In this document: positions 489 to 17,599 of the stretch, one piece after another | Layout of the letters: each line of letters opens with the position of its first letter | Position numbering within the stretch: the stretch's first letter is position 1 | Translations under genes and position numbers: made by a program | Notes under the pieces: model-generated | What the model saw: only the letters and a program-made list of their open reading frames with translations | What the model was told of the DNA's origin: nothing | The model's database searches: none | From: Devosia marina | GTDB lineage: Bacteria > Pseudomonadota > Alphaproteobacteria > Rhizobiales > Devosiaceae | Length of the DNA: 64,000 nucleotides | Direction of reading: 5' to 3' | Assembly: GCF_009758415.1 (NCBI RefSeq) | Contig: NZ_WQRF01000001.1 | Location: 1-64,000, forward strand

Positions 489-489
489 A

Positions 490-1305: not shown

Positions 1306-1347
1306 TGTGGGCTCTGCCTTTGCATTTAAAGTCTGGCCTTCTGACTA

Positions 1348-2106: not shown

Positions 2107-2780
2107 TGACGTCCAACCAGCGTGAGAGGTGAGATCGATAGGCTTGCGGGCCCCCGCGTTTCAAGATTGCGAACCACAAATCGGGCCACCCGGTCCGGAT
2201 CCATAAGCAACCAGTCGATCTTGCGCGCGTCATAGCCGGCGCGCCCATGCATAGGTGTTCTTGTGGGCCATAAGCGATAATGCCGCACAGTGATGCGATC
2301 TGCCCACTCGGACCCAAGGGATCGGGCAAGCCCGGCAAGAGCGCCCTTCCCGGCACTGTAAACCGGCATGCCCGCCGCCCCCTTGGCAGCCACAGACCCA
2401 AGCAGGGCAACGCGACCGGATTGACGCGCAAGTGAAGGATAGAGTCCGTGCAGAAGGCGGACCACGCTACTGAAATTGACGGCCATGGTTTGGGCCAGCG
2501 CTGTTTGGTCCTCGCGCTCCATCGGCCGGTAGAAACCTGCCCCGGCAGCCAGGATGATGCGATCGGCGGGACTTGCAAGATCGATCAAAGGTTCGGCCGA
2601 ACTAGACAGGTCTAGCTGATGATAGGCGATATCTGGAAAATCCGAGGGCAAGTCCGAGGAGGCGCGCTGCCCGGTAGCGGTGACGTCATGGCCCTGGCCT
2701 GCCAGCGATTGCACAATGCTCAGGCCAATGCCGGAGCTCGCCCCGGTTACGAAGTAACGTCGGCGACCATGCTGCTGCAC
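2103..2780 (-). CDS. short-chain dehydrogenase/reductase (SDR)
   Basis: A 225-residue SDR with the cofactor loop TGASSGIG and the active-site pair in YSAGK. It is somewhat shorter than typical members. The start is GTG at 2778-2780, directly after the TAG stop of the anti-sigma gene, and the 3' end overlaps the next SDR by four bases. The gene therefore sits in the sigma/anti-sigma operon. No substrate can be assigned; a role in remodelling lipids or detoxifying carbonyls under the control of that sigma factor is inference. Confidence 0.85.
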   Translation of the reverse strand: MQQHGRRRYFVTGASSGIGLSIVQSLAGQGHDVTATGQRASSDLPSDFPDIAYHQLDLSSSAEPLIDLASPADRIILAAGAGFYRPMEREDQTALAQTMAVNFSSVVRLLHGLYPSLARQSGRVALLGSVAAKGAAGMPVYSAGKGALAGLARSLGSEWADRITVRHYRLWPTRTPMHGRAGYDARKIDWLLMDPDRVARFVVRNLETRGPASLSISPLTLVGRQ

Positions 2781-3017
2781 CTATGGTTTGCCCGCGGCAT
2801 TGCGGAAGACCTCAATGACGCGAGGGTCTGGTTCGGAGTTATCCTGCCCGGCCTGGGCTGATTTCAGGAGCGCTACTGTCTTTGCGAGCTGGTCGACATA
2901 GGCGCGGCAATGCTTGCACATGAGCAGGTGCATCTTGACGCCGACGCGCTGGCGCAAGGTCAGCGTGCCTTCGAGGTAGTCGGTCGCGGTCTCGCTGAGT
3001 TCGCGGCAACTGAGCAT
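2781..3017 (-). CDS. zinc-finger (zf-HC2) anti-sigma factor
   Basis: A 78-residue soluble protein with the HLLMCKHC motif near residues 31-38, matching the H-x3-C-x2-C half of zinc anti-sigma domains, within a helical stretch from RELSETATDYLEGTL onward. It would bind the ECF sigma factor encoded just upstream and may release it on thiol oxidation, as the family does. I chose the ATG at 3015-3017 with GGAG eight bases before it. A TTG seven codons earlier has no ribosome site. It follows the sigma gene by 90 bases. Confidence 0.82.
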   Translation of the reverse strand: MLSCRELSETATDYLEGTLTLRQRVGVKMHLLMCKHCRAYVDQLAKTVALLKSAQAGQDNSEPDPRVIEVFRNAAGKP

Positions 3018-3107
3018 GATCTGGTCTCCAGGGCACAAATGGCGGCACCCAATCTTGATCGTTTATGTAGGTGAGTAAGTCCAAGGCGCCAACTGTTACG
3101 CTCGGCT

Positions 3108-3734
3108 TCAGGAGTTTCCCATCAGCTCTTCGAGAGCCGCCCTAATACGGGAGCGTCCACGGTGCAGCAGAATGCGGTGATTGGCCTCGCTGACCTCAAG
3201 GATCGAGCAGGTTTCCTCAGGCGATAGACCTTCGAGATCGCGAAGTGTGACGACGGCGCGCTGATTGGGCGGCAGTGTCTCGAGAATGGACATGGCATGG
3301 GCCAACAATTGCTTGCCGCCTACGATGCGTTCCGGGTTGATTTCCGACCATCGCCCCGGCGGGGATAGCCAGGAGCCGTCGCCCAGGAACCGATCCGGAT
3401 CGACGGCGGGGTCATTGTAACCCATGTCCGTAAAGGACACCGATCGGCCGTTGCGCTTGGCCTTTGTGCGGGCGATGTTGGCCAGCACGGCAAACGTCCA
3501 ACTCTTGAGGGATGATCGTTCCTCAAATTTGGCGATCCCGGAAATGAGGGCTATCCAGGTATCCTGCACGGCCTCTTCCGCCGCCGAGGGATCGCGCAGG
3601 AATGTCCGCGCGAAAGCCAGCATCGACCTCTGCTGTTCTGCCACCAATTGGCGAAAGGCCTTCTCGTCTCCGCGCTTCAACGCCTGGATCAACGCGCGCT
3701 CGTCGCGCCTGGAGTTCGCCACTCCCAAAACCAT
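3108..3734 (-). CDS. ECF RNA polymerase sigma factor
   Basis: A 208-residue sigma-70 family protein of the extracytoplasmic-function type. Region 2 runs from about residue 20 to 85 (FRQLVAEQQRSMLAFARTFL, then AEEAVQDTW and SLKSWTFAVLANIA). Region 4 covers about residues 145-200 (LPPNQRAVVTLRDLEGLS, then EETCSILEVSEANHRILLHR). The ATG at 3732-3734 follows a GGGGG run with good spacing; upstream ATGs in frame lack this. A promoter of the form GTAACT-N16-CGAA lies upstream at 3793-3818, which may be its own target. It heads an operon with a zinc anti-sigma factor and lipid-type redox genes. Confidence 0.92.
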   Translation of the reverse strand: MVLGVANSRRDERALIQALKRGDEKAFRQLVAEQQRSMLAFARTFLRDPSAAEEAVQDTWIALISGIAKFEERSSLKSWTFAVLANIARTKAKRNGRSVSFTDMGYNDPAVDPDRFLGDGSWLSPPGRWSEINPERIVGGKQLLAHAMSILETLPPNQRAVVTLRDLEGLSPEETCSILEVSEANHRILLHRGRSRIRAALEELMGNS

Positions 3735-3792
3735 ACAAACCCCCAAATCCCCAGCAGCGTGACTAGCAGTCTTTTCTCGGATTCCCTCCCCA

Positions 3793-3818
3793 TTCGCATC
3801 ATTGTGACCGAAAGTTAC
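3793..3818 (-). promoter_or_regulatory. putative ECF promoter of the sigma operon (GTAACT-N16-CGAA)
   Basis: Read on the minus strand, GTAACT (3813-3818) is followed by exactly 16 bases and CGAA (3793-3796). This is the form reported for Caulobacter SigF-type ECF promoters (GTAACC-N16-CGAA). It lies about 60 bases before the sigma start, so autoregulation is likely. The same layout recurs before bufA. Confidence 0.6.
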
Positions 3819-3910
3819 AGTCGCCGCCCATGTGAATGTAACGAAGGCGGCAGCCGGCAGACATATGAGCATCGGGGTGGTCGATGGACGAATTCGGAAA
3901 GGAGCTGGCT

Positions 3911-4351
3911 ATGTCCAAGGTAGTAAGAGGTCTGATTGCGGGCTTTGTCGCAACGCTGGTGCTTTCGGCGCTTATGGTGATGAAACAAGCGGTGAGCCTC
4001 ATGCCCGAGCTGGATGTCGTTACCATGCTGACATCGATGCTTTCCCTTCCCTCCGTAGCGTTTGGCTGGCTCGTGCACTTCATGATCGGCACGATTGCCT
4101 GGGGTATCGGTTATGCCCTGCTGCGGCCCCACCTGCCGGGTGGTGCCATCTGGTCCGGCGTCCTTTTTGGCACGGCCGCCTGGCTGATGATGATCGTCGT
4201 CATCCCCATGGTCGGCGCAGGTCTGTTTGGGATCAATATGGGCATCATGGCGCCGATCATGACCTTCATGCTTCATGCCATCTTCGGCGCCGTACTTGGC
4301 GCAGTCTATCAGGCCCTTGCCGAATCAGCTTCGCGGCACTCGGTGGCCTAG
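3911..4351 (+). CDS. DUF6789-like four-helix membrane protein
   Basis: A 146-residue hydrophobic protein with four predicted membrane segments (about residues 7-25, 48-66, 74-95, 110-130) rich in Met and Gly. It resembles small integral membrane proteins of the DUF6789 group, which have no known function. The ATG at 3911 is preceded by AAAGGAG at good spacing, which favours it over the ATG nine codons upstream. It is divergent from the ECF sigma gene and precedes the peroxiredoxin gene by 31 bases. The family assignment is from memory of the pattern and is moderate. Confidence 0.7.
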   Translation: MSKVVRGLIAGFVATLVLSALMVMKQAVSLMPELDVVTMLTSMLSLPSVAFGWLVHFMIGTIAWGIGYALLRPHLPGGAIWSGVLFGTAAWLMMIVVIPMVGAGLFGINMGIMAPIMTFMLHAIFGAVLGAVYQALAESASRHSVA

Positions 4352-4382
4352 ACTTCTATTTCTCATTGACCTCAGAATAGCC

Positions 4383-4928
4383 ATGTTGCCGCCTCGAACG
4401 ACCATCTTCCCTCGACAGCCTGTTCCCTCATTGATCTTGCCGCTTGCCGGCGGGGGAGAATTTGACCTGTCCGGCATGCAGGCCGAGAGCTTTCATCTGC
4501 TTGTCTTTTATCGAGGGCGACATTGCCCGGTGTGCAAGACCCAGCTTGGTGCATTGCAGGCCCAGGCGGGCGCATTTGCCGAGCGCGGGGTCACGGTGAC
4601 GGCGATATCGTGCGACACCAAAGATCGTGCAGAATCTGCGGTAGCGGACTGGAACCTGCCCGACCTCCGCATCGCCTACGATCTGACGCCAGAACAAGCG
4701 AGACAATGGGGCCTGTTCATAACGGCGACGCGCGGCAAAACCTCATTGGGGCTCGATGAGCCCGCTCTATTCTCGGAGCCGGGGTTGTTCCTGATCAGGC
4801 CGGACCTGACGCTCTTCTTTTCCTCGGTCCAGAGCATGCCGTTTGTTCGCCCTCGGGCGGAAGACATGCTGGCCGCCATCGACTTCATCAAAAAGAATGA
4901 TTACCCGCCCCGCGGCGACGTCATCTAG
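4383..4928 (+). CDS. AhpC/TSA-type peroxiredoxin-like protein
   Basis: A 181-residue thioredoxin-fold protein. The active-site region reads FYRGRHCPVCKTQLGAL, a CxxC near residues 47-50, followed by the AFAERGVTVTAISCD strand-helix typical of peroxiredoxin-like families. Such proteins reduce peroxides or act as thiol oxidoreductases in the cytoplasm. There is no signal peptide. The start chosen is ATG 4383, since the longer upstream frame overlaps the previous gene and has no family-like residues. It stands 22 bases before a CDP-alcohol phosphotransferase gene, at the head of the ynj-like locus. Confidence 0.82.
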   Translation: MLPPRTTIFPRQPVPSLILPLAGGGEFDLSGMQAESFHLLVFYRGRHCPVCKTQLGALQAQAGAFAERGVTVTAISCDTKDRAESAVADWNLPDLRIAYDLTPEQARQWGLFITATRGKTSLGLDEPALFSEPGLFLIRPDLTLFFSSVQSMPFVRPRAEDMLAAIDFIKKNDYPPRGDVI

Positions 4929-4950
4929 GGCGAACCGCAAAGGCGAACAG

Positions 4951-5559
4951 ATGCTCGACAGCTACATCATTCCGACACAAGAACGGCTTCTGCGCCCTCT
5001 GGCGGCATGGCTTTTGGCGCATGGTGCCACCGCGAACCGAATAACACTTGTCGGGTTTGTCATTGGACTTGGAGCTGTTCCGGCTATTGCAGGCGGTCAG
5101 TTTACGCTCGGCCTGGTGCTCATCGCGCTAAACCGCATCTTCGACGGGCTTGATGGGGCAGTGGCACGACTGGCCGGTCCGACTGACCGCGGCGCCTTCC
5201 TCGACATTGCGCTCGACTTCTTCTTTTACGCCGCCATTCCATTTGCCTTTGTCTTGGTCGACCCCGCGGTGAACGGGCTGGCCGGATCGCTACTGTTGTT
5301 TTCCTTCGTCGGCACGGGGTCGAGCTTTTTGGCGTTTGCCGTGATTGCGCAGCGCCGGGGCCTGACCTCGCTGAAAATGCCCAAGAAGGGTCTCTACTAT
5401 CTTGGTGGCATCACCGAGGGCGCCGAAACCATCGCCTTGTTCGCTCTGATCTGCCTTTTCCCCGAGCACTTTGCCATCATAGCTACCGTGTTTGCCGCCC
5501 TTGCTTTCGTGACCACGCTGGTCCGTTGGTGGTGGGGCTGGAAGGCCTTTGCAGAGTGA
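4951..5559 (+). CDS. CDP-alcohol phosphotransferase family membrane protein (YnjF-like)
   Basis: A 202-residue integral membrane enzyme. Residues 56-82 carry the family signature DGLDGAVARLAG followed by G-x3-D-x3-D (GAFLDIALD), which binds the CDP-alcohol and divalent metal. About six hydrophobic segments follow. Members move a phosphoalcohol head group onto another alcohol in phospholipid synthesis. In E. coli ynjF lies with ynjBCD, as here, so YnjF is the closest contextual match. ATG 4951 begins MLDSYIIPTQERLL, typical of the group. The true lipid product is unknown. Confidence 0.82.
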   Translation: MLDSYIIPTQERLLRPLAAWLLAHGATANRITLVGFVIGLGAVPAIAGGQFTLGLVLIALNRIFDGLDGAVARLAGPTDRGAFLDIALDFFFYAAIPFAFVLVDPAVNGLAGSLLLFSFVGTGSSFLAFAVIAQRRGLTSLKMPKKGLYYLGGITEGAETIALFALICLFPEHFAIIATVFAALAFVTTLVRWWWGWKAFAE

Positions 5560-5599
5560 GAGCCGTTTTCTGTCGAGGCCCTGGCGTCGGGTGCCGGCC

Positions 5600-6658
5600 A
5601 TGACCTCGGTCGCGCTCCAGGGTCTTGCCAAGTCCTTTCCAGGGGCCACAGCGCTGGCCGGTATCGACCTGACTATAGCGCCCGGGGAACTCGTCACCCT
5701 TCTAGGGCCGTCTGGTTGTGGCAAGTCGACGATGCTGCGGCTGATCGCCGGCTTGGACGAACGTGATCAGGGCGCGATCCTGTTTGACGGACACGACATA
5801 TCCGGTCTTGAGGTCAGTGAACGCAATGTCGGGCTGGTCTTCCAGCGCTACGCTTTGTTTCCGCACATGACAGTGCGACGCAACATTGCCTTCGGCCTGC
5901 GCGTCCGGGGTACACCGGACACAGAGGTCAACAGCCGCGTCAACGAAGCCCTGGACACTGTCCAGCTTGGCGAGCTTGGAGAGCGGTTCCCCCACCAGCT
6001 TTCAGGCGGACAGATGCAGCGGGTGGCCCTGGCCCGTACACTGATCACCAGGCCGCGACTGCTCATGCTCGATGAACCCTTCGCAGCGCTCGACGCCGAC
6101 CTGCGCCGGCAGATGCGCAGCTTTGTGCGTGATCTGCAGCAGCGATTGGGCCTGACCACGATTTTCGTGACCCATGACCAGGCCGAAGCGATGGAGATTT
6201 CAGACCGCATCGCCGTGATGCAGGCCGGACGCATCCTTCAGGTGGACCAACCAGAGACAATTTATCATCGGCCCGTATCCGCAGTGGTCGCCCGGATGAC
6301 CGGCGAGGCCAATCTGGTACCCGGTAGCGTGGTCGGCTTGGGCGATGCGTTGGGCGTCGAACTTGGATTCGGCCCGGTTCCGCTGCGCCAAAACGGGTTT
6401 ACGCCGGGGACCAAGGTCCTGTCACTGATACGCCCCGAAGCCATTGCCATTACGCCAGTTGATCCGGGTGATGGCCATGGCGCGATACAGTCCAGCGCCT
6501 TCATGGGCCAGTCCATCCGCTACTCCATTACAGCAGGCCCCAACACCTTCCTCGTTGATGCGGTGTCCACCCGACGCCTTGTCGATGGGCAGTCCGTCCT
6601 GATGAGGGTCGATCCCGCTCATGTGTCCGTCTTTCCCCCTGCAAATAACCAGGCTTAA
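5600..6658 (+). CDS. ABC transporter ATPase (YnjD/PotA type)
   Basis: A 352-residue importer ATPase with Walker A GPSGCGKST near residue 35, signature LSGGQMQR near 134, Walker B LMLDEPFAALD, the switch His in THDQAEA and a C-terminal TOBE-like domain after residue 240. The ATG at 5600 begins directly before the nucleotide-binding domain; its ribosome site is weak and it lies 40 bases after the phosphotransferase stop. With the next three genes it forms a full importer. The YnjB-type binding protein ties it to the uncharacterised Ynj system rather than to a known polyamine or iron carrier. Confidence 0.9.
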   Translation: MTSVALQGLAKSFPGATALAGIDLTIAPGELVTLLGPSGCGKSTMLRLIAGLDERDQGAILFDGHDISGLEVSERNVGLVFQRYALFPHMTVRRNIAFGLRVRGTPDTEVNSRVNEALDTVQLGELGERFPHQLSGGQMQRVALARTLITRPRLLMLDEPFAALDADLRRQMRSFVRDLQQRLGLTTIFVTHDQAEAMEISDRIAVMQAGRILQVDQPETIYHRPVSAVVARMTGEANLVPGSVVGLGDALGVELGFGPVPLRQNGFTPGTKVLSLIRPEAIAITPVDPGDGHGAIQSSAFMGQSIRYSITAGPNTFLVDAVSTRRLVDGQSVLMRVDPAHVSVFPPANNQA

Positions 6659-6685
6659 CCAGCTCCAACTTTCTCGAGGTATCAG

Positions 6686-8035
6686 ATGCACCTTTGTCGA
6701 TCCGTCCTATTCGTCGCGGCCTTTCTTGCCTCCACAACCGCTGTCATGGCGGACGAGGCAGCGGCGGGCTTTCAGGATCAGATCCTGGCCGGTGACATGA
6801 GCTGGGACGACGTCCTGGCGCAGGCGCGCGTGGATGGAGAGGTGCAGTTCTTCTATTGGGGCGGCGACGACAACCTCAATGTCTGGATGGATAGTGTGGT
6901 CGCGCCAGCCATGGCCGAACTGGGCATTTCGCTCGTCGCCAACCGCATCACCGGCACCAAGGATGCCGTTGACCTGGTGATCGCCGATGCGGCTTCCGGT
7001 CGTACCATCGGCGAAGGTAGCGTCGATGCCATCTGGCTTAATGGCGAGAACTTCTACACCCTCAAGCAGCAGGATCTGTTGTTCGGTTCATTCGCCCAGT
7101 TGCTCCCCAATGCCGCCAACTTCGAATGGGACGAAGCAGACCCGCGTTCGCAGCTCAACCTCAGGGACTTCGGCACGCCCACCGATGGCGCTGAAATGCC
7201 ATGGTCCGGCGAGCAATATGTCTGCTCTGCCAACCGCGCGGTCCTTCCGGTGGAGCAGACGCCGCGGACGTTTGAAGATTTGCAGGCCTATCTGGAGGTC
7301 AATCCAGGCAAGTTCGCCTATATCAAGCCGCCGCATTATCTGGGGAATACCTTTGTCCAGCAGGTGCTCTATGCCTTCAATCCAGATGGGACCGGTGCCA
7401 CGCCTTTCCAGCGATCCATTGAGGGCCTTGGTGCGGCCGAACTGGCGCGACTTGCTGCGCCGGGCTTTGAATACCTCAAGGACATTGAACCGCTCCTGCT
7501 TGGCGGACCGCAGGGCGCCGTGCGTTATCCTGAAGACGCTGCCGCTGCCGAGGGTTTGTTTCGCAATAGCGAGATCCACATCAATTGCGGCTTCGGGCTC
7601 TATGCGGTGGCAACAAAGCGCGCCGATGGCAGCTACCCACAGACCGCCGAGGAAATCATCTTCCCGGCCGGCAACATGATCAAGAACAAGAACTATCTTG
7701 CCATTCCGGCCAACGCTCCGAACCCCGCGGCTGCACTGGTGTTTGCCAACTATATGTCGTCGGTCGAGGCGCAGGTCACCAAGCTCGACCTTGTTGGCTA
7801 CCCGGCAGGCATCGACCCCTGGAAGCTCGATCCGGCTGATGCCGCCGCGCTCGAAGCGGCAGCTCCCGCCCATTACGGCGTGACCCAGGATGAGCTGGAT
7901 GACAATATCGCCCCAGACACAAACGCTTCGCTGGTGGAGGTGATCGAGGCAACATGGCTCGAATACATAGAGCGCGGTTCGAGCCTGCCGCTGGAGGAGA
8001 TCGTTGCCAATGCCGTCGCCAATCTGGCGCCGTAG
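6686..8035 (+). CDS. ynjB: YnjB-type ABC transporter substrate-binding protein
   Basis: A 449-residue periplasmic protein with a signal peptide ending near VMADEAAA (about residue 22). Segments FYWGGDDNLNVWMDSVVAP, GSVDAIWLNGENFYTLK and PWSGEQYVC are typical of the YnjB family, a branch of the extracellular solute-binding proteins of unknown ligand. The ribosome site is GAGG about nine bases before ATG 6686. The 3' end overlaps the first permease gene, and unlike the other three binding proteins in the window there is no hairpin after it. Confidence 0.85.
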   Translation: MHLCRSVLFVAAFLASTTAVMADEAAAGFQDQILAGDMSWDDVLAQARVDGEVQFFYWGGDDNLNVWMDSVVAPAMAELGISLVANRITGTKDAVDLVIADAASGRTIGEGSVDAIWLNGENFYTLKQQDLLFGSFAQLLPNAANFEWDEADPRSQLNLRDFGTPTDGAEMPWSGEQYVCSANRAVLPVEQTPRTFEDLQAYLEVNPGKFAYIKPPHYLGNTFVQQVLYAFNPDGTGATPFQRSIEGLGAAELARLAAPGFEYLKDIEPLLLGGPQGAVRYPEDAAAAEGLFRNSEIHINCGFGLYAVATKRADGSYPQTAEEIIFPAGNMIKNKNYLAIPANAPNPAAALVFANYMSSVEAQVTKLDLVGYPAGIDPWKLDPADAAALEAAAPAHYGVTQDELDDNIAPDTNASLVEVIEATWLEYIERGSSLPLEEIVANAVANLAP

Positions 8036-8909
8036 GCCCACCCTGCAGAGGCAACAGGTCTTAGGCCTGTTGCCTCTGGGCGTCGTGATGATTGTGCTGT
8101 TTGGCGGAGCCCTGGCGCTCGCGTTGTTGCAGAGCCTCGGCTTTGCCCCCTGGCTCGGGATCAACAGTTTCCCCGATGTGAGTTATTTCATTGCGCTCTG
8201 GGGCGGTGCCAGCTTCTGGTGGTCGCTGTGGTTCACGCTCTACTACAGTTTGGCGGCCACAGTGATCGCGCTGGTCCTGGCCATTCTCCTCGCCCTGGGT
8301 CTCACGCGGGCTTTTCCAGGCCGTGCGGTTTTCGGCTCGCTCTATAAGCTGCCCTTGGTTGTGCCCTATGCCGTCGGTATTGCCTTGGCCGTCATCATGA
8401 TGGGCAATGGCGGCGTGCTGTCCCGCCTGGCCTTCGCTCTGGGCTGGATCGATGACCCAGCCCAGTTCCCGCTGCTGCTTACTACCAATGCGGGCTGGGG
8501 CGTCATTGCCGTCTATGTCTGGAAGCAGTTACCCTTCATGGCCCTTGCTATCCATGCCGTGCTGATCAGTGCCGGTCGCGAGCAGGCAGAAGCCGCCGCT
8601 GTGCTTGGCGCCAACAGGCGTCAGATCTTCCGCGAGATCACCTGGCCCCAGATTGTTCCCGGCATCGTCTCGTCCACGCTGATCTGCTTTGCCTTCAACA
8701 TGGGCGCGTTCGAGGCGCCCTTTATCCTTGGAGGCGGATTTCCGGACACGCTTCCGGTCATGGCCTGGCGCTATTTCAACGATGCCGACTACACGCTTCA
8801 GCTTCAGGGCATGGCGGTCGTGGTCTCGATCGGCCTTGTTGCCGGCATGATGATTGCCGTCTATCTTGCGACCTATCGGCGCTATGAACGCAGCTTGGGT
8901 CGGGTCTAA
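8010..8909 (+). CDS. ABC transporter permease (YnjC N-half-like)
   Basis: A 299-residue inner-membrane permease with about six membrane segments and the EAA loop EAAAVLGANRRQIFREITWPQI near residue 195, which docks on the ATPase. The start ATG 8010 lies inside the end of ynjB and has GGAGGAG ten bases before it. It pairs with the next permease two bases downstream. In E. coli YnjC is a single fused permease of twice this length; here the two halves are separate genes. Confidence 0.88.
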   Translation: MPSPIWRRRPTLQRQQVLGLLPLGVVMIVLFGGALALALLQSLGFAPWLGINSFPDVSYFIALWGGASFWWSLWFTLYYSLAATVIALVLAILLALGLTRAFPGRAVFGSLYKLPLVVPYAVGIALAVIMMGNGGVLSRLAFALGWIDDPAQFPLLLTTNAGWGVIAVYVWKQLPFMALAIHAVLISAGREQAEAAAVLGANRRQIFREITWPQIVPGIVSSTLICFAFNMGAFEAPFILGGGFPDTLPVMAWRYFNDADYTLQLQGMAVVVSIGLVAGMMIAVYLATYRRYERSLGRV

Positions 8910-8911
8910 CC

Positions 8912-9748
8912 ATGGCGCGATCGCAAGCGTCTCCCCACGCAGCTCGCTTCTATGTGGTTCTGATTGTGCTGTTCATGGTTGGACCATTTGTCCCACTGCT
9001 GGTCCAATCCTTCGCCTTCCAATGGGACTGGCCCAATCTTCTGCCGTCCGAGTGGTGGTTCACCGCGCGGGATCGCGCTCGCCTGCCTCTGGGCTGGGAC
9101 TATGTTCTGTCACCCTATAGCCGGTTGGGCGAGGCCGTTCTGAATACGGTTCTGATCGGGAGCGCCACGACGCTGATTTGCCTCGCAATCTGCCTTCCCG
9201 CAGCGCGCGTCCTCGCGCGGGAGGACTTTGCCGGCAAACGTGCCTTCGAGTTCTATCTGTCCATGCCGCTGATCGTGCCGGAAGCCGCAGTCGGATTGGC
9301 GCTCTCGGTGATGTTTGTCCGAGTGGGTCTTGCGGGAAGCTATGCGGGGATCATCATTGCCCACCTTATCCCTACCATACCCTATATGGTGCGCATGCTG
9401 ACGGCCGTCTATCAGGGGCTGGATCGAGGCTTTGAGGAACAGGCCCGGGTTCTGGGGGCGAGCCGATCGCAGGCGCTGCGCCTGGTCACCATACCGATGC
9501 TTCTGCCGGGAATTCTCGCAGGATGCCTGTTCACCTTCCTTGTCTCAACCAATCTGTTCCTGCTCACCTTCCTGCTTGGACAGGGCAAGATCATCACCCT
9601 GCCGACATTGCTCTTCGCCAAGATATCCGGCGGATCGCTCGACGCTTCGGCCGCAGGCATTGCGTTGGTGGCAACGCTACCGGGAATAGTCCTGCTGCTG
9701 ATTTCCGAACGCTACCTGAATGGCCTCAACCAATTGACGGGTCGATGA
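8912..9748 (+). CDS. ABC transporter permease (YnjC C-half-like)
   Basis: A 278-residue permease with six predicted membrane segments and the EAA-type loop EEQARVLGASRSQALRLVTIPM near residue 170. It starts two bases after the preceding permease and closes the ynj-like importer operon. The final gene ends 25 bases before a convergent small membrane-protein gene. Confidence 0.88.
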   Translation: MARSQASPHAARFYVVLIVLFMVGPFVPLLVQSFAFQWDWPNLLPSEWWFTARDRARLPLGWDYVLSPYSRLGEAVLNTVLIGSATTLICLAICLPAARVLAREDFAGKRAFEFYLSMPLIVPEAAVGLALSVMFVRVGLAGSYAGIIIAHLIPTIPYMVRMLTAVYQGLDRGFEEQARVLGASRSQALRLVTIPMLLPGILAGCLFTFLVSTNLFLLTFLLGQGKIITLPTLLFAKISGGSLDASAAGIALVATLPGIVLLLISERYLNGLNQLTGR

Positions 9749-9773
9749 TGCCGGGCGCCAGGCCTGGGGTTGA

Positions 9774-10157
9774 TCACCGGCCAGCGTGGGGTCGGCCAGG
9801 CCACAAGACGAGTGCCAGCATGACGGACAATGCAGCCATCACGCCAATCCAGCCGAAATACCAGAAACGGCCTGCCAACCCGTTCTCAGCGAAACTGGCC
9901 GCAAATTCCGCTTTCCCGAAATGCGCGCTCAAGCCAGCCAATATGAGGAGCATGGCTGCCGCGATAATTGTTAGCGGGCGTCGCAAGCCCATTGCCACCG
10001 CAACTATCGCCAGGGCAAGGCCAATAGGCGCGCCAATCCAGGCGATACTGACTGACCACCATGGATGAGCGCCGAGCCAGGTGGTCGCGCCTGAATAGGC
10101 AAGCAGAACAGGGAAAATTGCTGCTGCGGCCAGTGCGGCCAGTCGTTTGGCTAACAT
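9774..10157 (-). CDS. small four-helix membrane protein, unknown
   Basis: A 127-residue very hydrophobic protein with about four membrane segments (near residues 5-25, 35-55, 60-80, 100-122). I do not recognise its family. ATG 10155-10157 with GGGAA before it is preferred to a GTG twelve codons earlier whose upstream GGAG is too close. It follows the glutaredoxin gene in the same direction and probably belongs to the nrsF-glutaredoxin transcription unit, so a link to redox or metal stress is possible but unproven. Confidence 0.65.
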   Translation of the reverse strand: MLAKRLAALAAAAIFPVLLAYSGATTWLGAHPWWSVSIAWIGAPIGLALAIVAVAMGLRRPLTIIAAAMLLILAGLSAHFGKAEFAASFAENGLAGRFWYFGWIGVMAALSVMLALVLWPGRPHAGR

Positions 10158-10198
10158 CGAATTTCCCGGACCTGATTTCTTAAGCAGCAACACTCCAA

Positions 10199-10474
10199 TT
10201 AGCCGACAGACGCCAGAAGCGGGTCCAGCCGACCCTGACCGTCAAGGTCGTACAAGTCGTCGCAACCACCCACATGGGTAGATCCAATGAAGATCTGCGG
10301 AACCGTACTTCTGCCTCTCGCCCTGCCGATCATGGCGGCACGCTCCGTTGGGTGGCGCGAAATGTCGATCTCGACATAGTCGACCTTCTTGCGGGTCAGG
10401 AGGTGCTTGGCATCGGCGCAATAGGGGCAGCCGGGCTTGGTATAGATAGTGACCTGGGGTGATGGATTGCTCAT
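10199..10474 (-). CDS. glutaredoxin 3-like (GrxC family)
   Basis: A 91-residue dithiol glutaredoxin. The active site CPYC is at residues 16-19 after YTKPG, followed by the glutathione-binding elements TVPQIFI and GGCDDL near residues 58-72. It would reduce protein disulfides and mixed glutathione disulfides in the cytoplasm. The extra Cys in GGCDD is common in GrxC proteins. It lies 100 bases downstream of the nrsF-like gene and likely supports thiol control in the adjoining bufferin/anti-sigma locus. Confidence 0.92.
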   Translation of the reverse strand: MSNPSPQVTIYTKPGCPYCADAKHLLTRKKVDYVEIDISRHPTERAAMIGRARGRSTVPQIFIGSTHVGGCDDLYDLDGQGRLDPLLASVG

Positions 10475-10574
10475 CGGTCGGGCGCCTTTCAGGTAGCGAC
10501 AGCTTCGGCACTAGTACCGCACCTGTCCGCAGCCTTAGTCGTCGGCCCTGGCGCGCTGTTACAGTCTTGGTGGC

Positions 10575-11216
10575 TTACCACCGCACCAGAAACCGCCCCA
10601 GGACGGCGCCTGCGACCATCAGGAGGGCAATGCCGATTGGATACCAGGTCACCACGAATAGCGGTGAATCATCGGTGCAGTGCGCTGCGTAAACACTTGC
10701 CGATATGCCGCCGGCGACAAGCCCGGCGAGAGCACCGGCGCCGGTTGATGAGGTGGGAGCCCCCTTCCTCAGGGCCAGCATGAATGCCGAGAGCGGCGCC
10801 AGTCCCAAAAGCGGAATGAAGGTCATGCAGACCCTGCTGTTCTGCCCAATTTGAGCGCCGGGCCAAAGTTCTCGCGGGATGGATATGAGTTCGAGAACGG
10901 CCGCGACAATGATGACGCCTACTGGGGCCAGTAGCCAGACGACTGGCAAGCCTCTTCCCGGGACCAGAGAAGCCTTTAAGACAACAAGGCCAAATCCGAA
11001 CAGGCTGAAGGTAAAGACGAATTTCGCGACGAAGCGAACTGAACCGAGCGAAGCAACGGCGTCGGGGCGAGGTCCAATCGTCAGGTAAAGGCCAGCGATC
11101 GCGGTAATGACGGCGATGAGTGTGGCGAGCATCAAAACTGTGGCCAGTCCGAGGGGACGCCGGTCGAGGTCGGCAACGAGCGCGTCTATCAGTGCGTCCC
11201 AGTTCCTGATGGCCAC
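10575..11216 (-). CDS. nrsF: NrsF-like (DUF1109) membrane anti-sigma factor
   Basis: A 213-residue protein with six predicted membrane helices, matching DUF1109. The two conserved cysteines are visible in NSRVCMTFIPLLGLAP (about residue 130) and YAAHCTDDSP (about residue 180). In Caulobacter NrsF holds an ECF sigma factor (SigF) until metal or oxidant stress acts on such cysteines. The start is GTG 11214-11216 with AAAGGA before it. It diverges from bufA, and no sigma gene adjoins it; the nearest ECF gene is 6.8 kb away at 3108-3734. Family identity is strong, partner identity is inference. Confidence 0.85.
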   Translation of the reverse strand: MAIRNWDALIDALVADLDRRPLGLATVLMLATLIAVITAIAGLYLTIGPRPDAVASLGSVRFVAKFVFTFSLFGFGLVVLKASLVPGRGLPVVWLLAPVGVIIVAAVLELISIPRELWPGAQIGQNSRVCMTFIPLLGLAPLSAFMLALRKGAPTSSTGAGALAGLVAGGISASVYAAHCTDDSPLFVVTWYPIGIALLMVAGAVLGRFLVRW

Positions 11217-11246
11217 GGCATCATCCTTTCGCCCGCCTACAACATA

Positions 11247-11274
11247 TTCGTGCCGCCAATGGCGATTTCGTTAC
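11247..11274 (-). promoter_or_regulatory. possible ECF promoter of nrsF (GTAACG, weak -10)
   Basis: On the minus strand GTAACG (11269-11274) is followed by CGAA only after 18 bases (11247-11250), or CACG after 16. The -35 matches the sigma and bufA promoters but the spacing is off, so confidence is limited. Confidence 0.35.
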
Positions 11275-11319
11275 GTCGTCCGACAGCTGCCCGTTCACTG
11301 TTCTGTGAAGAGCAGGGTC

Positions 11320-11345
11320 GTAACGGTCGAACGGGTCGATCCGAC
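11320..11345 (+). promoter_or_regulatory. putative ECF promoter of the bufferin operon (GTAACG-N16-CGAC)
   Basis: GTAACG at 11320-11325 is followed by exactly 16 bases and CGAC at 11342-11345, about 50 bases before bufA. It matches the promoter before the ECF sigma gene at 3793-3818 in both elements and spacing, and the known form of SigF promoters that drive bufferin operons in Caulobacter. Confidence 0.6.
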
Positions 11346-11395
11346 TACTGAGCACGGAGCCACTTCGGTTCCGCCTCTGAAAGGGAGAACTCATC

Positions 11396-11689
11396 ATGAA
11401 CCGTCGGACCTCGCTCGCTCTGGCCGCGTCACTGCTCACCGCCGTTTCCGGCCTTTCCGTCCAAGGCGCTGTTGCCCAGGATGCTACCGAGAAGTGCTAC
11501 GGCGTTGCTCTTGCCGGGCAGAATGACTGCGCCGCCGGCCCCGGCACCACCTGCGCCGGAACGTCCGTCATCGACTATCAAGGAAATGCCTGGAAGGCCG
11601 TTCCGGCAGGGACCTGCCTAACCATTTCGCTGGAAGGTGGTCGCACCGGTTCGCTTGAAGCCCTCGATCGCGACCTGCCACAGGCCTGA
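11396..11689 (+). CDS. bufA1: bufferin precursor peptide, DUF2282 (BufA1-type)
   Basis: A 97-residue exported peptide with a signal sequence of about 28 residues ending at VAQDA. The mature part has the DUF2282 core: [20 protein letters not shown], then [14 protein letters not shown] and GTCL, with four spaced cysteines. In Caulobacter such peptides are modified on cysteines by the BufB/BufC enzyme pair and bind copper in the periplasm. The ribosome site GGGAG stands before ATG 11396. It is first in the operon, and a strong hairpin separates it from bufB. Confidence 0.93.
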
Positions 11690-11709
11690 TCGACGCCGCC
11701 TCCAAAGCA

Positions 11710-11737
11710 CCGGAGATCCGTCCCCTCGGATCTCCGG
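11710..11737 (+). terminator. hairpin between bufA and bufB
   Basis: CCGGAGATCCG (11710-11720) pairs perfectly with CGGATCTCCGG (11727-11737) around a six-base loop. There is no T run, so it may be an mRNA-stabilising or attenuating stem that makes the peptide message more abundant than that of the enzymes. Confidence 0.6.
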
Positions 11738-11760
11738 CCTTCCCCAAAGGGAGATCGAGA

Positions 11761-12630
11761 ATGGACGCACCGCATCTTCCTCCTCGCGCTGGTCTGGGTC
11801 TCAAGCCCCAGCATTATGCCGAGATACTTGGGGAGCGCCCCGATATCGGATTCTTCGAGGTGCATGCCGAGAACTACATGGGCGACGGTGGACCACCACA
11901 TCGGTACCTGGCAGCGATCGTTGAGCACTATCCGCTCTCTCTGCATGGCGTGGGCCTGTCGATCGGCGACGAGGCTCCGCTCAATCGGGACCATCTGCGG
12001 CGCCTGCGGTCCTTGGTCGACCGCTATAGGCCGCAGTCCTTTTCCGAGCATCTGGCCTGATCATCGCATGAGGAGACAAACCTCAACGACCTGCTGCCGC
12101 TGCCCTATACCAATGCGACGCTGGACCGGGTAGTCGCCCATGTCGACGAGGTCCAACAGGTACTGGGCTGTGTTATGCTGCTCGAAAACCCGTCCACCTA
12201 TGTGCTGTTCGCCGAAAGCACGATCGACGAGATCCATTTCCTGGCGACCATCGCCGACCGGACCGGCTGCGGACTGCTGCTGGACGTCAACAATGTCATG
12301 GTCTCCTCGGTAAATCACCGCATGGACCCATTTGCCTATATCGATCGCTTTCCGGTGCATGCCGTGGGCGAGATTCATTTGGCCGGCTATGACGAAACCA
12401 CCGACGCCGTTGGCGAGCGGCTCCTGATCGACGCACATGCGTCGCGGGTCAGCCAGGATGTCTTTGCGCTCTTTCGGCATACGCTCGGCCGAACAGGGCC
12501 GGTGCCGACGCTGGTGGAATGGGACAATAACGTGCCCGCCTTTTCAGTGCTGGCGGACGAGGCGCGCATTGTCGACCTCGCCATTGCGGAAGTCTCCGCG
12601 CGTGGCGACCGTCGGGAGCATGTCGCATGA
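11761..12630 (+). pseudogene. bufB: bufB (DUF692/MNIO enzyme) interrupted by an in-frame TGA
   Basis: The frame encodes a 289-residue DUF692 multinuclear iron oxidase (MNIO), the enzyme that modifies bufferin cysteines. N-terminal [26 protein letters not shown] and [10 protein letters not shown] are typical, as are MLLENPSTY, LLLDVNNV, GEIHLAGY and VEWDNNVP after the break. At 12058-12060 the codon between SEHLA and SSHE is TGA where the family has Trp (TGG), a one-base change. Reading frame is kept on both sides. Either the gene is freshly inactivated, the stop is read through, or the assembly has an error. Other genes here use TGA as stop, so general recoding is excluded. Confidence 0.85.
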
Positions 12631-13379
12631 CAGTCCAGCCCGTGCGTCAGACAGACTTTGCCGCCGCTCTGGTCGACCCGGCACGAGCCGTGCCGCCCGG
12701 CATCGTCTCCTATCGCTGCGACAGCGATCCAAAGCGTTTCGCGGTCTATCGCAACAATGTCCACGTCGGACTGGTTGGTGTGCTAGCCGCCAAGTTTCCG
12801 GTTTGCGCGCAACTGGTGGGCGAAGAATTCTTCACCGCCATGGCGCGCATCTATGTGGCCGACCGCAAGCCCACCTCGCCGATCATGATGCATTACGGGG
12901 CCGAGTTCCCCGCATTTATCAGCGACTTCGTCGGCGCACGTTCGGTGCCTTATCTTTCGGACATGGCAGCGCTCGAGCAGGCATGGAGCGTCGCCTACAA
13001 TGCGGCCGATGCCGGCCCGGTCACCTTGGCTGAGATCGCCGCAATCGATCTGGACAATTTGCCAGATCTGACCCTGACACCCCATCCAGCATCCGGCCTG
13101 CTCCGGTCGGACTACCCGACAGGCTCCATCTGGGCCGCGCATCAGGCGCCGGGGGTAAAGGTTCGCTCGGGCGCTGAGGCCATTCTGGTCACGCGCCCTG
13201 CAATGGACGTCAAAGTGACAGTAATTCCCACGGCAGACGCTGCCTTCGCGCAGGACCTGTTGCGAGGCGCGGCTGTTGGAGATGCCATTGAGCGGGTGCT
13301 GATCGGCCAATCCGAATTTGATTTCGGACGCGCGCTGGTGGGGCTTTGTTCCCTTGGCGCGTTTTCCCAACCGGTTTGA
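12627..13379 (+). CDS. bufC: bufferin partner protein, DUF2063 (BufC-type)
   Basis: A 250-residue cytoplasmic protein of the DUF2063 family, which partners DUF692 enzymes to recognise the precursor peptide. The N-terminal helical domain has the conserved FAVYRNNVHVGLVGVLAAKFP and FFTAMARIYV stretches, then FPAFISDF and YLSDMAALE. A beta-rich C-terminal half follows. Its ATG overlaps the bufB stop by four bases (ATGA), so its translation should depend on ribosomes finishing bufB. The premature stop in bufB might therefore lower its level. Confidence 0.88.
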   Translation: MTVQPVRQTDFAAALVDPARAVPPGIVSYRCDSDPKRFAVYRNNVHVGLVGVLAAKFPVCAQLVGEEFFTAMARIYVADRKPTSPIMMHYGAEFPAFISDFVGARSVPYLSDMAALEQAWSVAYNAADAGPVTLAEIAAIDLDNLPDLTLTPHPASGLLRSDYPTGSIWAAHQAPGVKVRSGAEAILVTRPAMDVKVTVIPTADAAFAQDLLRGAAVGDAIERVLIGQSEFDFGRALVGLCSLGAFSQPV

Positions 13380-13398
13380 CTTAGAAAGCAGGCTCATC

Positions 13399-13899
13399 AT
13401 GCTGCAAAAAATTGGAAGTCTCTGTCAGGCTGCGGACCGGCTGATTGCGGCCATCCTGCATTCCATCGGCCTCCTGGCCCTGCGCGTGGCGCTCGCCATC
13501 CCATTCTGGCGTTCCGGCATGACCAAATGGGATGGATTTTTCAATCTCTCAAGCGGCGCGCGCTACCTGTTCCAGCAGGAGTTCAAGCTCAACATCTTTG
13601 GGCAGGCCATTGCCTATCCTTTTCCGCTGACTGCCGCCTTTCTGGCCGGCGTGGGCGAGATTGTGCTACCCGTGTTGCTCGTGCTGGGCCTGGGCACCCG
13701 ATTTGCCGCGACAGGCATTCTGCTCATGACACTGGTCATTCAACTGACCATTCCGGATGGTCTGATCAACTTCCACCTGCCTTGGGTTGCCATGGCACTG
13801 TGTCTGATGGCTTTCGGGGGCGGGCGGTTGTCGATAGACTCCCTCGCAATGATGATGCTAGGGCAGACTCCGGCTCGACAAGCCCCGCATCCCTCGTGA
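13399..13899 (+). CDS. DoxX family membrane protein
   Basis: A 166-residue membrane protein with four helices and the DoxX pattern: RVALAIPFWRSGMTKWDGF near residue 32, then FPLTAAFLAGVGEIVLPVLLVLGLGTRFAA and GLINFHLPWVAMAL. Members occur in redox or thiol-stress complexes and are a frequent fourth gene in bufferin operons. ATG 13399 is 19 bases after bufC. The extra N-terminal 27 codons of the longer frame overlap bufC and look non-coding. Confidence 0.86.
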   Translation: MLQKIGSLCQAADRLIAAILHSIGLLALRVALAIPFWRSGMTKWDGFFNLSSGARYLFQQEFKLNIFGQAIAYPFPLTAAFLAGVGEIVLPVLLVLGLGTRFAATGILLMTLVIQLTIPDGLINFHLPWVAMALCLMAFGGGRLSIDSLAMMMLGQTPARQAPHPS

Positions 13900-13915
13900 C
13901 AGGCGCGTCAAAGGC

Positions 13916-14356
13916 ATGATCAGGATCTTTGCGAAACTGCCAGAAGCCGGAGTGGCGTTCTTTTCCTTTGCCTTCCATTTTGTCTGGGAGATGCTTCAGG
14001 TCCCCACATATCAGGGGATGGCCGACCTGCCGCATTGGGAAGGCGTGCTGGTCTGTACGCAAGCGACCCTGGGCGATGTCGGATTTGCCTTGATCGCTTT
14101 CTGGGCGGCCGCCCTTTTCCAAAGATCGCGAGGCTGGATGCTGGAGCCCGATAGGTCCAGCATTGCGCTGTTCCTGCTGGTGGGGCTGGCCCTGACCATC
14201 GCCTTTGAGTTCTACTACACCCAAGTTACGCATCGCTGGAGCTATTCGGAGATCATGCCCCTCGTGCCGCCTTTCGGGACCGGGGCGAGCCCGCTGGCGC
14301 AATGGGTGGTCATTCCTTTGTTGGTGGTCGAGTTGATGCGTCGCAGGTCCGTGTAG
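13916..14356 (+). CDS. unknown membrane protein next to the bufferin operon
   Basis: A 146-residue protein with about four membrane segments (near residues 10-27, 45-66, 80-100, 122-140). Notable polar residues in or near the membrane are FHFVWEMLQ, HWEGVLVCTQATLGD and FEFYYTQVTHRWSYSE. I do not recognise a family. It starts 16 bases after the DoxX gene in the same direction, so it is likely co-transcribed with the bufferin genes. His, Cys and Met in these segments would allow metal or quinone binding, but this is only suggestion. Confidence 0.7.
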   Translation: MIRIFAKLPEAGVAFFSFAFHFVWEMLQVPTYQGMADLPHWEGVLVCTQATLGDVGFALIAFWAAALFQRSRGWMLEPDRSSIALFLLVGLALTIAFEFYYTQVTHRWSYSEIMPLVPPFGTGASPLAQWVVIPLLVVELMRRRSV

Positions 14357-14363
14357 CGGCCTC

Positions 14364-15140
14364 TCAGGAACCGGACGTCTCGCTCGCCTTCGGCAACAGG
14401 GCGTGGCCAAGCGCCCAGATCCACACGAGAACGTATAGAGCCGCCCCGATTGCTTCACCCAGAAGTCGCGTCCCCTGGCCGACCAGAAAACGGTGGGACG
14501 CAGCCTCACCCGGGATGAACCAGAAGGGCGCGATGGCGGGAAGATAGCTGAGCATGGGGATGATCACGCCTTCGATGGACAGCCAGAGCGCAATATAGAT
14601 CGCGGTCAAGGCCAGGCTGGTCCCCAGTGGGGTGCTGCGCCAGGCAGAGAACAGGCCGGTGGCTTGGCCGGTTGCATAGTGTCCGGCGCCGAACAGCCCG
14701 CGCAGGACGACAAAATAGACGGCCGTCTTGGCGTAGATCAGAAGAAGAAACGCTGCGCGGAAGCTCTCACCTCCCATTGGCATCCCACCGAACTGCAGGA
14801 AGTAGCCGGCAGAGTCGAAGCCCAGCAGCAAGGCGCCCAAGAGCACTGCGACACCGCCCCACAGGCCAAGGAAACGACCCCAGCGCACATGCTTACCGAC
14901 CGTCGGGCGCATGATCAGACAGATCGATCCACCCAGGATCGCAACCTTTATGACTTCTGCCAGGGTCGAGATCGCAACGGTCAACCACTCGGCTTGCTCC
15001 ATGGAGGTGAGGGGAATCCAATGGTCCATGAAAACAATCGAAACCTGTTCCAGAACACTCAGGGCGGCGATGAGCACCCCGGTTCCGGCGAGAAGGACCA
15101 TGGTGCGCGCGCGGCGCGAGGTGAAAATTTCAGTCGGCAT
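14364..15140 (-). CDS. unknown six-helix membrane protein
   Basis: A 258-residue protein with about six membrane segments spread over the whole length and no motif I can name. It is convergent with the preceding membrane-protein gene, only seven bases apart. ATG 15138-15140 is used; a GTG at 15165-15167 with AAAGG before it is a fair alternative and would add nine residues. A perfect palindrome (CCTAGACCAGGTCTAGG) lies 60 bases upstream and may be its operator. Confidence 0.65.
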   Translation of the reverse strand: MPTEIFTSRRARTMVLLAGTGVLIAALSVLEQVSIVFMDHWIPLTSMEQAEWLTVAISTLAEVIKVAILGGSICLIMRPTVGKHVRWGRFLGLWGGVAVLLGALLLGFDSAGYFLQFGGMPMGGESFRAAFLLLIYAKTAVYFVVLRGLFGAGHYATGQATGLFSAWRSTPLGTSLALTAIYIALWLSIEGVIIPMLSYLPAIAPFWFIPGEAASHRFLVGQGTRLLGEAIGAALYVLVWIWALGHALLPKASETSGS

Positions 15141-15200
15141 GAGCTGGGGAGTGGTTGTGGACTGCACCGCATGGGCCTTTCGCAAAGTCGCCGTGTAGAT

Positions 15201-15217
15201 CCTAGACCAGGTCTAGG
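15201..15217. promoter_or_regulatory. perfect palindrome, candidate operator
   Basis: CCTAGACCAGGTCTAGG has two perfect 8-base arms about one central base. It sits between a membrane-protein gene and the nrtS-like gene, where a promoter for the former would be expected. No regulator can be matched to it. Confidence 0.4.
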
Positions 15218-15250
15218 CAACTGGACTTTGTCTTGCTGGCATGGGTGCTG

Positions 15251-15508
15251 TTACGAGCCGACACCGTTTTTTCGGCGCATGGCCATGGCCATGCTCCAGG
15301 CGCCATAAGTGGAGACGAGGAATGGCACCGCATAGGTCAACAGGAGCTTGGGGATATTGAGCGCCGTGCCCGCCAGCATGGCGTCGCCTTGATTTATGAG
15401 ATTGAGCGCGGTTCCGCCCACGATGGCGACGATGACAGACTGCTTCACAACCCGCTTGCTTAGGGCAAGCTGTAGCGGCGTCGCTTGCCGTTCATTGCGA
15501 TAAGACAT
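15251..15508 (-). CDS. nrtS: NrtS-like nitrate/nitrite transporter small protein
   Basis: An 85-residue protein with two membrane helices. The stretch GGTALNLINQGDAMLAGTALNIPKLLLTYAVPFLVSTYGA contains the NrtS hallmarks NQGD and LTY-VPF-V-TYGA. Small NrtS proteins have been described as nitrate/nitrite transporters. It stands alone, divergent from the EAL phosphodiesterase gene, so its physiological role here is open. Confidence 0.72.
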   Translation of the reverse strand: MSYRNERQATPLQLALSKRVVKQSVIVAIVGGTALNLINQGDAMLAGTALNIPKLLLTYAVPFLVSTYGAWSMAMAMRRKNGVGS

Positions 15509-15606
15509 GCCCTGTCCCTAGTGCCAGCCACTTCACGTTGTCGTGCTGGTTAACCGATTAAAAGTCTCTGCCGCCTACTCTTTGTTTCAAGAGTACGGAG
15601 TTCGCC

Positions 15607-17211
15607 GTGGCGGTCACGATAGCGGAAAAAGGTTATCGTGCCGTTCTGAGAACGCTGATCGTGGCGGGCTCGGCGCTGGCCTTTGCCTGGGTGGGATGGG
15701 CTGGACTGGAAGGGCTGCGGACCCAGCGAAACCTGGCGCAGCTCGAAGAACTCAGCGGGCAGCTGCTGCAGCGCGCCGAACTGGCCGTTGATTACGCCGT
15801 CATCACGCTGGGCGACTACGCGGCGCCGAGCAACGACCTGTGCAATATCGACGCGCTCCGAACCCTTCGTCGTCAGACCTATGCCCGCGGCGCCATCAAG
15901 GACATCGCCGTACTGGCGTCCGATGGCCAACCGATGTGCTCTACGGCCCCGGTTCAGTTCGACCTGCTGTCTTCTAGAAGCGCCCCAATTGCCGAATATG
16001 AATCGCGGAACACTTCGATAGTTTTGCAACCAAGCCATGCCGAGGGCAGTGGACTCTTCCGAGTCATCTGGCGCGTCAGCGACACGCATTTGGTCGCCGC
16101 CACCCTCAATATCGATATGTTGATGTTTGACATCTTCCCCGCCCAATTGCGGGATGAGGCGCTGGCTGAAATTCGGATTGGGACCGGCGATGTGGTGGCG
16201 CGATTTGGGGATATGGCGAGCAAGGAGGCAGGGGAAACGGCTCGCGCATTTGAGTCCGCCTCGGATCGCTATCCGGTCAGCGTGGCCCTTGCGGTGAGCG
16301 ATAGCAGCTTTCGCAACTGGAATCCCTGGCCGCTTGCCCCGGTTCTCGCTGTCGGGGCCATTGCTGGCACCCTGGTCGGGCTGCTGCTTGCCCAATCCAG
16401 CATGCGGCCGCCAGGCCCGGTGGATGCACTTCGGATTGCCATACGCCGGGGTGAACTTGTTCCCTACTACCAGCCGATCTTTGAGCTGGCGACGGCCCGG
16501 ATCGTTGGCTGCGAGGTCTTGGTGCGCTGGGTCCGGCGGGACGGCGAATTGGTCTTTCCCGATCGCTTCATTCCCATTGCCGAAGCGAGCGGCCTTATCG
16601 TCCCGATGACGGAGCGGCTGGTCGAGCAGGCGCTGTCCGAGTTGGCGCCGCTTCTATCCGGGCGGCCAGAATTCAAGACTGCCTTCAACATCGACCCGGC
16701 CCATTTCGTGCAGCAAGGGTTTCTCGACGCACTTGATCAAATAGTCGCTCAGACCGGATGGCCCAATACCCGCATCGTTCTCGAGCTAACCGAGCGCAAC
16801 GCCTTTCCTGACATGAAGCAGGCTGTCGCAGTGACCAAAGAGGCCCGCACGCGCGGATACCGCATTTCGCTGGACGATACCGGCGCTGGCCATAACGGGC
16901 TGGGACACATTCAAGACCTCAACCCGGACATCATCAAGATAGACAAGAAGTTTGTTGGCGTCGCTGGCACGGTTGAAGCCGCGGATGCCATCATAGAGGT
17001 GCTGGTCAATCTGGGGCAGCGCATGGGCGCGGTCGTGGTCGCCGAAGGCATCGAAACCGAAGACCAAAGGGCTACGCTGGCACACGCTGGCGTAGCCCAG
17101 GGCCAAGGTTACCTCATATCCAGACCGGTGCCTCTGGCCCGGTTCCGCACCTTGATTCGCGACCACGAACTTGTCGCGCAACCGGCCGCCAACGATCCGC
17201 AAATGGCTTAG
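15607..17211 (+). CDS. CSS-motif EAL-domain cyclic-di-GMP phosphodiesterase
   Basis: A 534-residue inner-membrane enzyme. An N-terminal helix (residues 12-33) leads to a periplasmic CSS-type sensor (to about 235) with cysteines in NDLCN and QPMCSTAP, which can form a redox-switch disulfide. A second helix (about 240-262) leads to the EAL domain. Its catalytic set is present: EVLVRW for EAL, FNID, LELTER, LDDTGAG (DDFGTG elsewhere), IKIDKKF, AEGIE and QGYL. It should hydrolyse c-di-GMP to pGpG. The start is GTG 15607 with CGGAG before it. Confidence 0.92.
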   Translation: MAVTIAEKGYRAVLRTLIVAGSALAFAWVGWAGLEGLRTQRNLAQLEELSGQLLQRAELAVDYAVITLGDYAAPSNDLCNIDALRTLRRQTYARGAIKDIAVLASDGQPMCSTAPVQFDLLSSRSAPIAEYESRNTSIVLQPSHAEGSGLFRVIWRVSDTHLVAATLNIDMLMFDIFPAQLRDEALAEIRIGTGDVVARFGDMASKEAGETARAFESASDRYPVSVALAVSDSSFRNWNPWPLAPVLAVGAIAGTLVGLLLAQSSMRPPGPVDALRIAIRRGELVPYYQPIFELATARIVGCEVLVRWVRRDGELVFPDRFIPIAEASGLIVPMTERLVEQALSELAPLLSGRPEFKTAFNIDPAHFVQQGFLDALDQIVAQTGWPNTRIVLELTERNAFPDMKQAVAVTKEARTRGYRISLDDTGAGHNGLGHIQDLNPDIIKIDKKFVGVAGTVEAADAIIEVLVNLGQRMGAVVVAEGIETEDQRATLAHAGVAQGQGYLISRPVPLARFRTLIRDHELVAQPAANDPQMA

Positions 17212-17599
17212 CGCTCTCGGCCCATGCGAGTTTTCCAGAGCGGTCGTTGACCAACATTATTTCGTCGTCATTGTCAGCTTTGGCCGTAGGTCCACCCAAA
17301 ACCAGTCAGGCTACTACCGGCCCCGCTTAAGGCGCAGGCGTGGAGAATTGTGGGGCAGGGGACTTCCATAACCCGCCGATCAGCAACGCGCCCCCATTCG
17401 GCCGTTGAAACTAACCTCACGCGTGCCCAAGAGCAGACATTCGGATCGCCGGTAATTAGGTCAGGCTCTTATCGGGCCTCCCCAATCACATTTGGCGGTG
17501 AGTGACCCTACGCCCATCAGGGTTTGCAGGACCGACCCGCGGGTTACCTCTGCTTCGGCGTCTTCGGAGCTTTCGTATTGCGGTATCGGTCGTTAGAAA
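17212..17599. other. gene-poor stretch, nothing recognised
   Basis: About 390 bases after the EAL gene hold no frame with family-like sequence, no tRNA cloverleaf and no clear repeat. Short frames here look random. Confidence 0.5.

Follow-up and report, generated by a model that had tools for sequence, protein, structure and literature searches.

A recent nonsense mutation, a G-to-A change in the codon for Trp-100, has most likely inactivated bufB, the gene for an enzyme that modifies copper peptides, in a redundant second bufferin operon of Devosia marina. The operon was studied in a stretch of 64,000 nucleotides (here called the window), in which positions 12052-12069, read in the frame of the ATG at 11761, are CTG GCC TGA TCA TCG CAT. 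Both the sequence itself and the comparison with relatives indicate that the TGA (12058-12060, plus strand) replaces the codon of a conserved Trp, the last residue of the motif SEHLAW. The part of bufB before the premature stop (11761-12060, plus strand) encodes 99 amino acids and holds the iron-ligand positions H62 and H97, and the remaining frame (12061-12630, plus strand) is open, is still constrained and holds the ligands E142, D175, N178, H206, D224, H226 and E253. This is the only in-frame TGA in a frame that is otherwise open and free of gaps; when it is counted as a residue, the gene codes for 289 amino acids and runs from 11761 to the TGA at 12628-12630.

The interrupted bufB gene and its operon

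The read-through bufB frame matched the Pfam family PF05114 (MbnB_TglH_ChrH; DUF692/MNIO) over residues 10-272 with 343.7 bits (cut-off 25), and the match spans the TGA. In a tblastn search of the fetched relatives, which ranged from members of the genus to a Coxiellaceae MAG, Trp was found at this position in all 50 loci that covered it, and the codon was TGG in each of the 11 relatives whose codons were inspected. The residue aligned with it in solved homologues is aromatic as well, Phe in 3BWW and Tyr in MbnB 7FC0. Since the relatives carry TGG, the ancestral codon was changed by a single G-to-A substitution at its third base, position 12060. When 75 genomes of the genus were searched in full, just one of the 21 listed PF05114 matches, the window bufB, contained an in-frame stop. 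An order-wide search gave one other stop among the best-scoring matches listed, a TAG in genome G252, and no second TGA case among them; as these were the best scores only, no rate of stops can be derived from them.

The genes around bufB are intact, as the first-pass annotation of this DNA had stated. The bufferin precursor gene bufA (11396-11689, plus strand) codes for a DUF2282 protein of 97 amino acids (PF10048, 84.7 bits) with four Cys and an N-terminus that, judged by eye, is signal-like. Downstream of bufB lie bufC (12627-13379, plus strand), coding for the DUF2063 partner protein of 250 amino acids (PF09836, 90.3 bits), and doxX (13399-13899, plus strand; 166 amino acids; PF07681, 61.7 bits), both with open frames. 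The same annotation had placed a TGA at a conserved Trp codon within a bufB frame that was otherwise preserved on both sides, and the comparisons above bear this out. Its statement that the promoter is present holds in part. By motif comparison, a sigma-F-type promoter-like site, GTAACG-N16-CGAC, is recognizable at 11320-11345 (plus strand), beginning 76 bases before the bufA ATG, and resembles the Caulobacter sigma-F consensus GTAACC-N16-CGAA (PMC3511200); however, its -10 element is altered, since the 15 genus loci examined have GTAAC-N16/17-CGAA, with CGAA in 15 of 15 as against CGAC in the window.

The anti-sigma-F gene nrsF (10575-11216, minus strand; PF06532, 168.8 bits) is divergent from bufA and has no sigma gene adjoining it. 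In gene order and protein families, and with its promoter-like site of the sigma-F type, the window operon is like the known Buf1 (DUF2282) cluster, in which bufA, bufB (MNIO), bufC (DUF2063, PME1) and doxX are under sigma-F/NrsF control (PMC12452194, PMC3511200), but it differs from it in the TGA at codon 100, which leaves it without an intact MNIO gene, in the CGAC of the -10 element and in the divergent nrsF that lacks a neighboring sigma gene. The other nrsF of this genome (C25:43238-43849) has a sigma-factor-like ORF directly upstream.

Predicted fate of the truncated enzyme and of BufC

With codon 100 changed from TGG to TGA, translation would end after 99 of the 289 residues. The iron ligands of the homologous enzyme TglH are His71, His107, Glu151, Asp184, His216 and Glu258, with Asp184, Asn187, Asp229 and His231 binding a third iron (PMC10880893). 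Placed by motif, these correspond in the window BufB to H62, H97, E142, D175, H206 and E253, together with N178, D224 and H226. All nine are still encoded in the gene, yet only H62 and H97 lie before the stop, so that the 99-residue product does not unite the nine iron ligands of a functional MNIO in one polypeptide. In HvfB, alanine variants at the ligands of the third site were shown to be inactive (PMC13419390). With no more than two of nine ligands left in the fragment, and given that such variants of HvfB are inactive, the 99-residue BufB is expected to be inactive.

It might be argued that the two halves of the enzyme are made separately, the 99-residue N-terminal part and a C-terminal part of 151 amino acids begun at ATG 12175, the first in-frame start codon downstream of the TGA, and that together they form a working barrel. 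Each part would retain its own ligand residues, and an open ORF encodes the C-terminal one; nevertheless, residues 100-138, which are conserved among relatives, would belong to neither part, and a Shine-Dalgarno-like stretch before ATG 12175 was not apparent by eye. We regard such a split enzyme as exceedingly improbable.

The start of bufC overlaps the native bufB stop in the sequence ATGA (12627-12630), an arrangement also found in genome G032. As the last two thirds of bufB would be left untranslated upstream of this overlap, BufC synthesis should be lowered by the premature stop as well.

The possibility of readthrough of the TGA

The first-pass annotation had left a choice between a very recent loss, leaky or programmed readthrough, and an assembly error; recent loss is the best supported of these, the probability of an error is low, and readthrough found no support in the tRNAs, the context of the stop or the relatives. 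If tRNA-Trp were to insert Trp at the UGA often enough, full-length BufB would be made in a functional amount, and the enzyme dosage would be lowered but not abolished. That the lost residue is Trp, which a near-cognate tRNA-Trp could restore, and that the codons downstream of the TGA still look constrained are both in keeping with this proposal. On the other hand, TGA stands at the Trp-100 position in no relative, neither among the 50 covering loci nor among the 21 listed matches of the genus. The sole tRNA-Trp found has a CCA anticodon, a 5-bp anticodon stem, A9 and G24, whereas the forms of tRNA-Trp known to read UGA have a 4-bp stem, A9C or G24A (PMC13092985). ARAGORN and Rfam searches found no tRNA with a UGA-reading (UCA) anticodon, and all matches to tRNA-Sec in these searches were below the cut-off, the best of them being a tRNA-Ser. 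Furthermore, 29 of the 57 long ORFs in the window and the 16 kb that continue it end in TGA, more than in any other stop codon, so that TGA works as a stop here, and the RNA structure predicted after the bufB TGA is not unusual (z = -1.23).

Neither a dedicated tRNA nor a TGA conserved among relatives, either of which would mark programmed recoding of UGA, was found. Decoding by selenocysteine or by a suppressor tRNA was considered and dropped, as no dedicated tRNA was found and the relatives carry TGG. Basal leakage at UGA occurs in any cell and would yield traces of BufB only. Readthrough giving a functional enzyme is accordingly most unlikely, and we give very little credence to a regulated, low-level form of it that would set the dosage of BufB, and of the coupled BufC, in the second bufferin operon.

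Age of the stop and the possibility of a sequence error

A purpose-written codon model with separate branch rates was applied to bufB, with the G032 copy (86% nucleotide identity), the closest copy of the operon, included; G032 is not syntenic with the window over 14300-53900 and was used for codon evolution only. For the whole gene, omega was 0.09-0.10 on the window branch compared with 0.10 in the background. Downstream of the stop it was 0.085 on the window branch as against 0.116 in the background, with a likelihood interval reaching about 0.19 (2 delta lnL was 4.5 at an omega of 0.2 and 22.5 at 1.0). Several changes at conserved positions of bufB, such as G70D and A163T, are seen in the window only, and the rate is not raised by them. 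Any free evolution downstream of the stop would thus cover no more than about one tenth of the branch, counted from the divergence from the G032-type copy. As the codons past the stop are still constrained, the stop is either young or an error, and this constraint fits the two equally well.

Were the true base at 12060 a G, bufB would be intact and the genome would have two working bufferin operons. Such an error would be a single substitution in a gene in which the frame, the nine ligands and the codon constraint are otherwise kept, a wrong base would be expected to leave no decay downstream, and the genome is a draft of 31 contigs. Against this, the assembly has a completeness rating of 99.7% and a contamination of 0, the TGA lies on a contig of 1.6 Mb, and a real loss is plausible given that the sister genomes are without the operon. 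In addition, the ORFs of the window and of the region around the second operon on contig C1 were compared with those of syntenic relatives (56 rows, about 50 of them usable), and a stop well inside a gene was found in bufB alone. Judging by the ones inspected, the remaining flags marked ORFs that were spurious or over-extended, apart from the gene at 3887-4366. The absence of another internal stop in about 50 comparisons argues against a generally poor assembly and makes a single-base error less likely, and we consider such an error improbable, while according it a small share of the probability.

The gene at 3887-4366 (plus strand) resembles one for a small membrane protein and has an in-frame stop near its 3' end that leaves it a few codons shorter than its relative in G005. 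A codon-likelihood scan for interrupted frames was also tried and proved non-discriminating, as it flagged tandem genes in the same frame and left the bufB stop unranked; it was replaced by the comparison with syntenic relatives.

The nonsense mutation in bufB is most likely an ordinary, young gene loss. Like ordinary pseudogenization of a redundant paralog, it involves one disrupted copy, one intact copy and a locus that is gone in sister species; it differs in that decay of the window bufB has hardly begun, so that the gene would stand at the earliest recognizable stage.

An intact second operon and possible modification in trans

A second PF05114 gene is present in the same genome at C1:44830-45621, as part of a complete bufA-bufB-bufC-doxX operon whose genes, including those for the DUF2282, DUF2063 and DoxX proteins, are all open. 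The two nearest sequenced relatives, G005 and G009, are syntenic with this locus, with about 87-88% nucleotide identity across 11-13 kb. The loss of the window bufB would be tolerated because of this intact paralogous operon, at a locus common to the nearest relatives. Like Caulobacter, in which two bufferin operons (CC2905-2907 and CC3254-3257) belong to one sigma-F regulon (PMC3511200), this genome has two such operons; given the Caulobacter example, the presence of two operons alone is no proof of redundancy.

It was suggested that precursors encoded apart from MNIO genes are modified by enzymes from another locus, or stay unmodified (PMC12452194). The window and C1 precursors are almost identical over their cysteine region, and both may be substrates of the C1 BufB and BufC, in which case the window precursor would be modified in trans. 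The prediction of the earlier annotation that an unmodified DUF2282 peptide would be made does not follow; as the C1 enzymes may act on the near-identical window precursor, an unmodified peptide is one possibility and not the expected outcome. Whether a single MNIO/partner pair is able to act on a precursor from another place in the genome, a question raised in PMC12452194, has a natural test in the window operon. For thiooxazoles, a chromophore at roughly 305 nm has been reported (PMC13097082).

Probable loss of the operon in related genomes

G005 and G009 both lack the window buf operon and the ABC transporter near it. In G005, window positions 1-5566 are joined directly to 16604-17324, so that the segment 5567-16603 (11.0 kb) is absent; in G009, positions 4952-5570 are followed by 226 bp and then by 15527-17309, so that 5571-15526 (10.0 kb) is missing. 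Within the missing segment lie the ABC transporter, the nrsF stretch and the buf operon; of an EAL gene it includes a part or nothing. Its left end is common to the two genomes within 4 bases (5566-5570) and its right ends differ (16604 and 15527); the 226 bases at the G009 junction are unrelated. The more distant G077, in its copy 2, has the gene order of the window over 15-17324 minus a few stretches, chiefly 9729-11291 and 14020-15268.

The simplest reading of these gene orders is that the line of G005 and G009 deleted the window operon and that the species of the window separately acquired its nonsense mutation; gain of the segment in the line of the window, in place of a deletion in the other, would be less simple. 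As the two nearest relatives have no window operon, this clade can do without it. With a fresh nonsense mutation in one species, the whole operon gone in the two nearest to it and the C1-type paralog intact in all three, the clade provides a small, clean example of the loss of redundant metal-stress peptide operons.

Frameshifts were also seen in G025 (loci L111, at G025:C1:1003000-1010000, and L060): a divergent second copy of bufB has one, and so does the bufC of the first operon. They were dropped as a case of parallel loss, since an assembly that is a single contig and 91% complete makes indel errors likely. Of the two stretches missing from the otherwise syntenic G077 locus, that at 9729-11291 (1.56 kb) holds nrsF as well as a glutaredoxin gene, and that at 14020-15268, directly past doxX, has two ORFs without a Pfam match, at 13916-14356 (plus strand) and 14364-15185 (minus strand).
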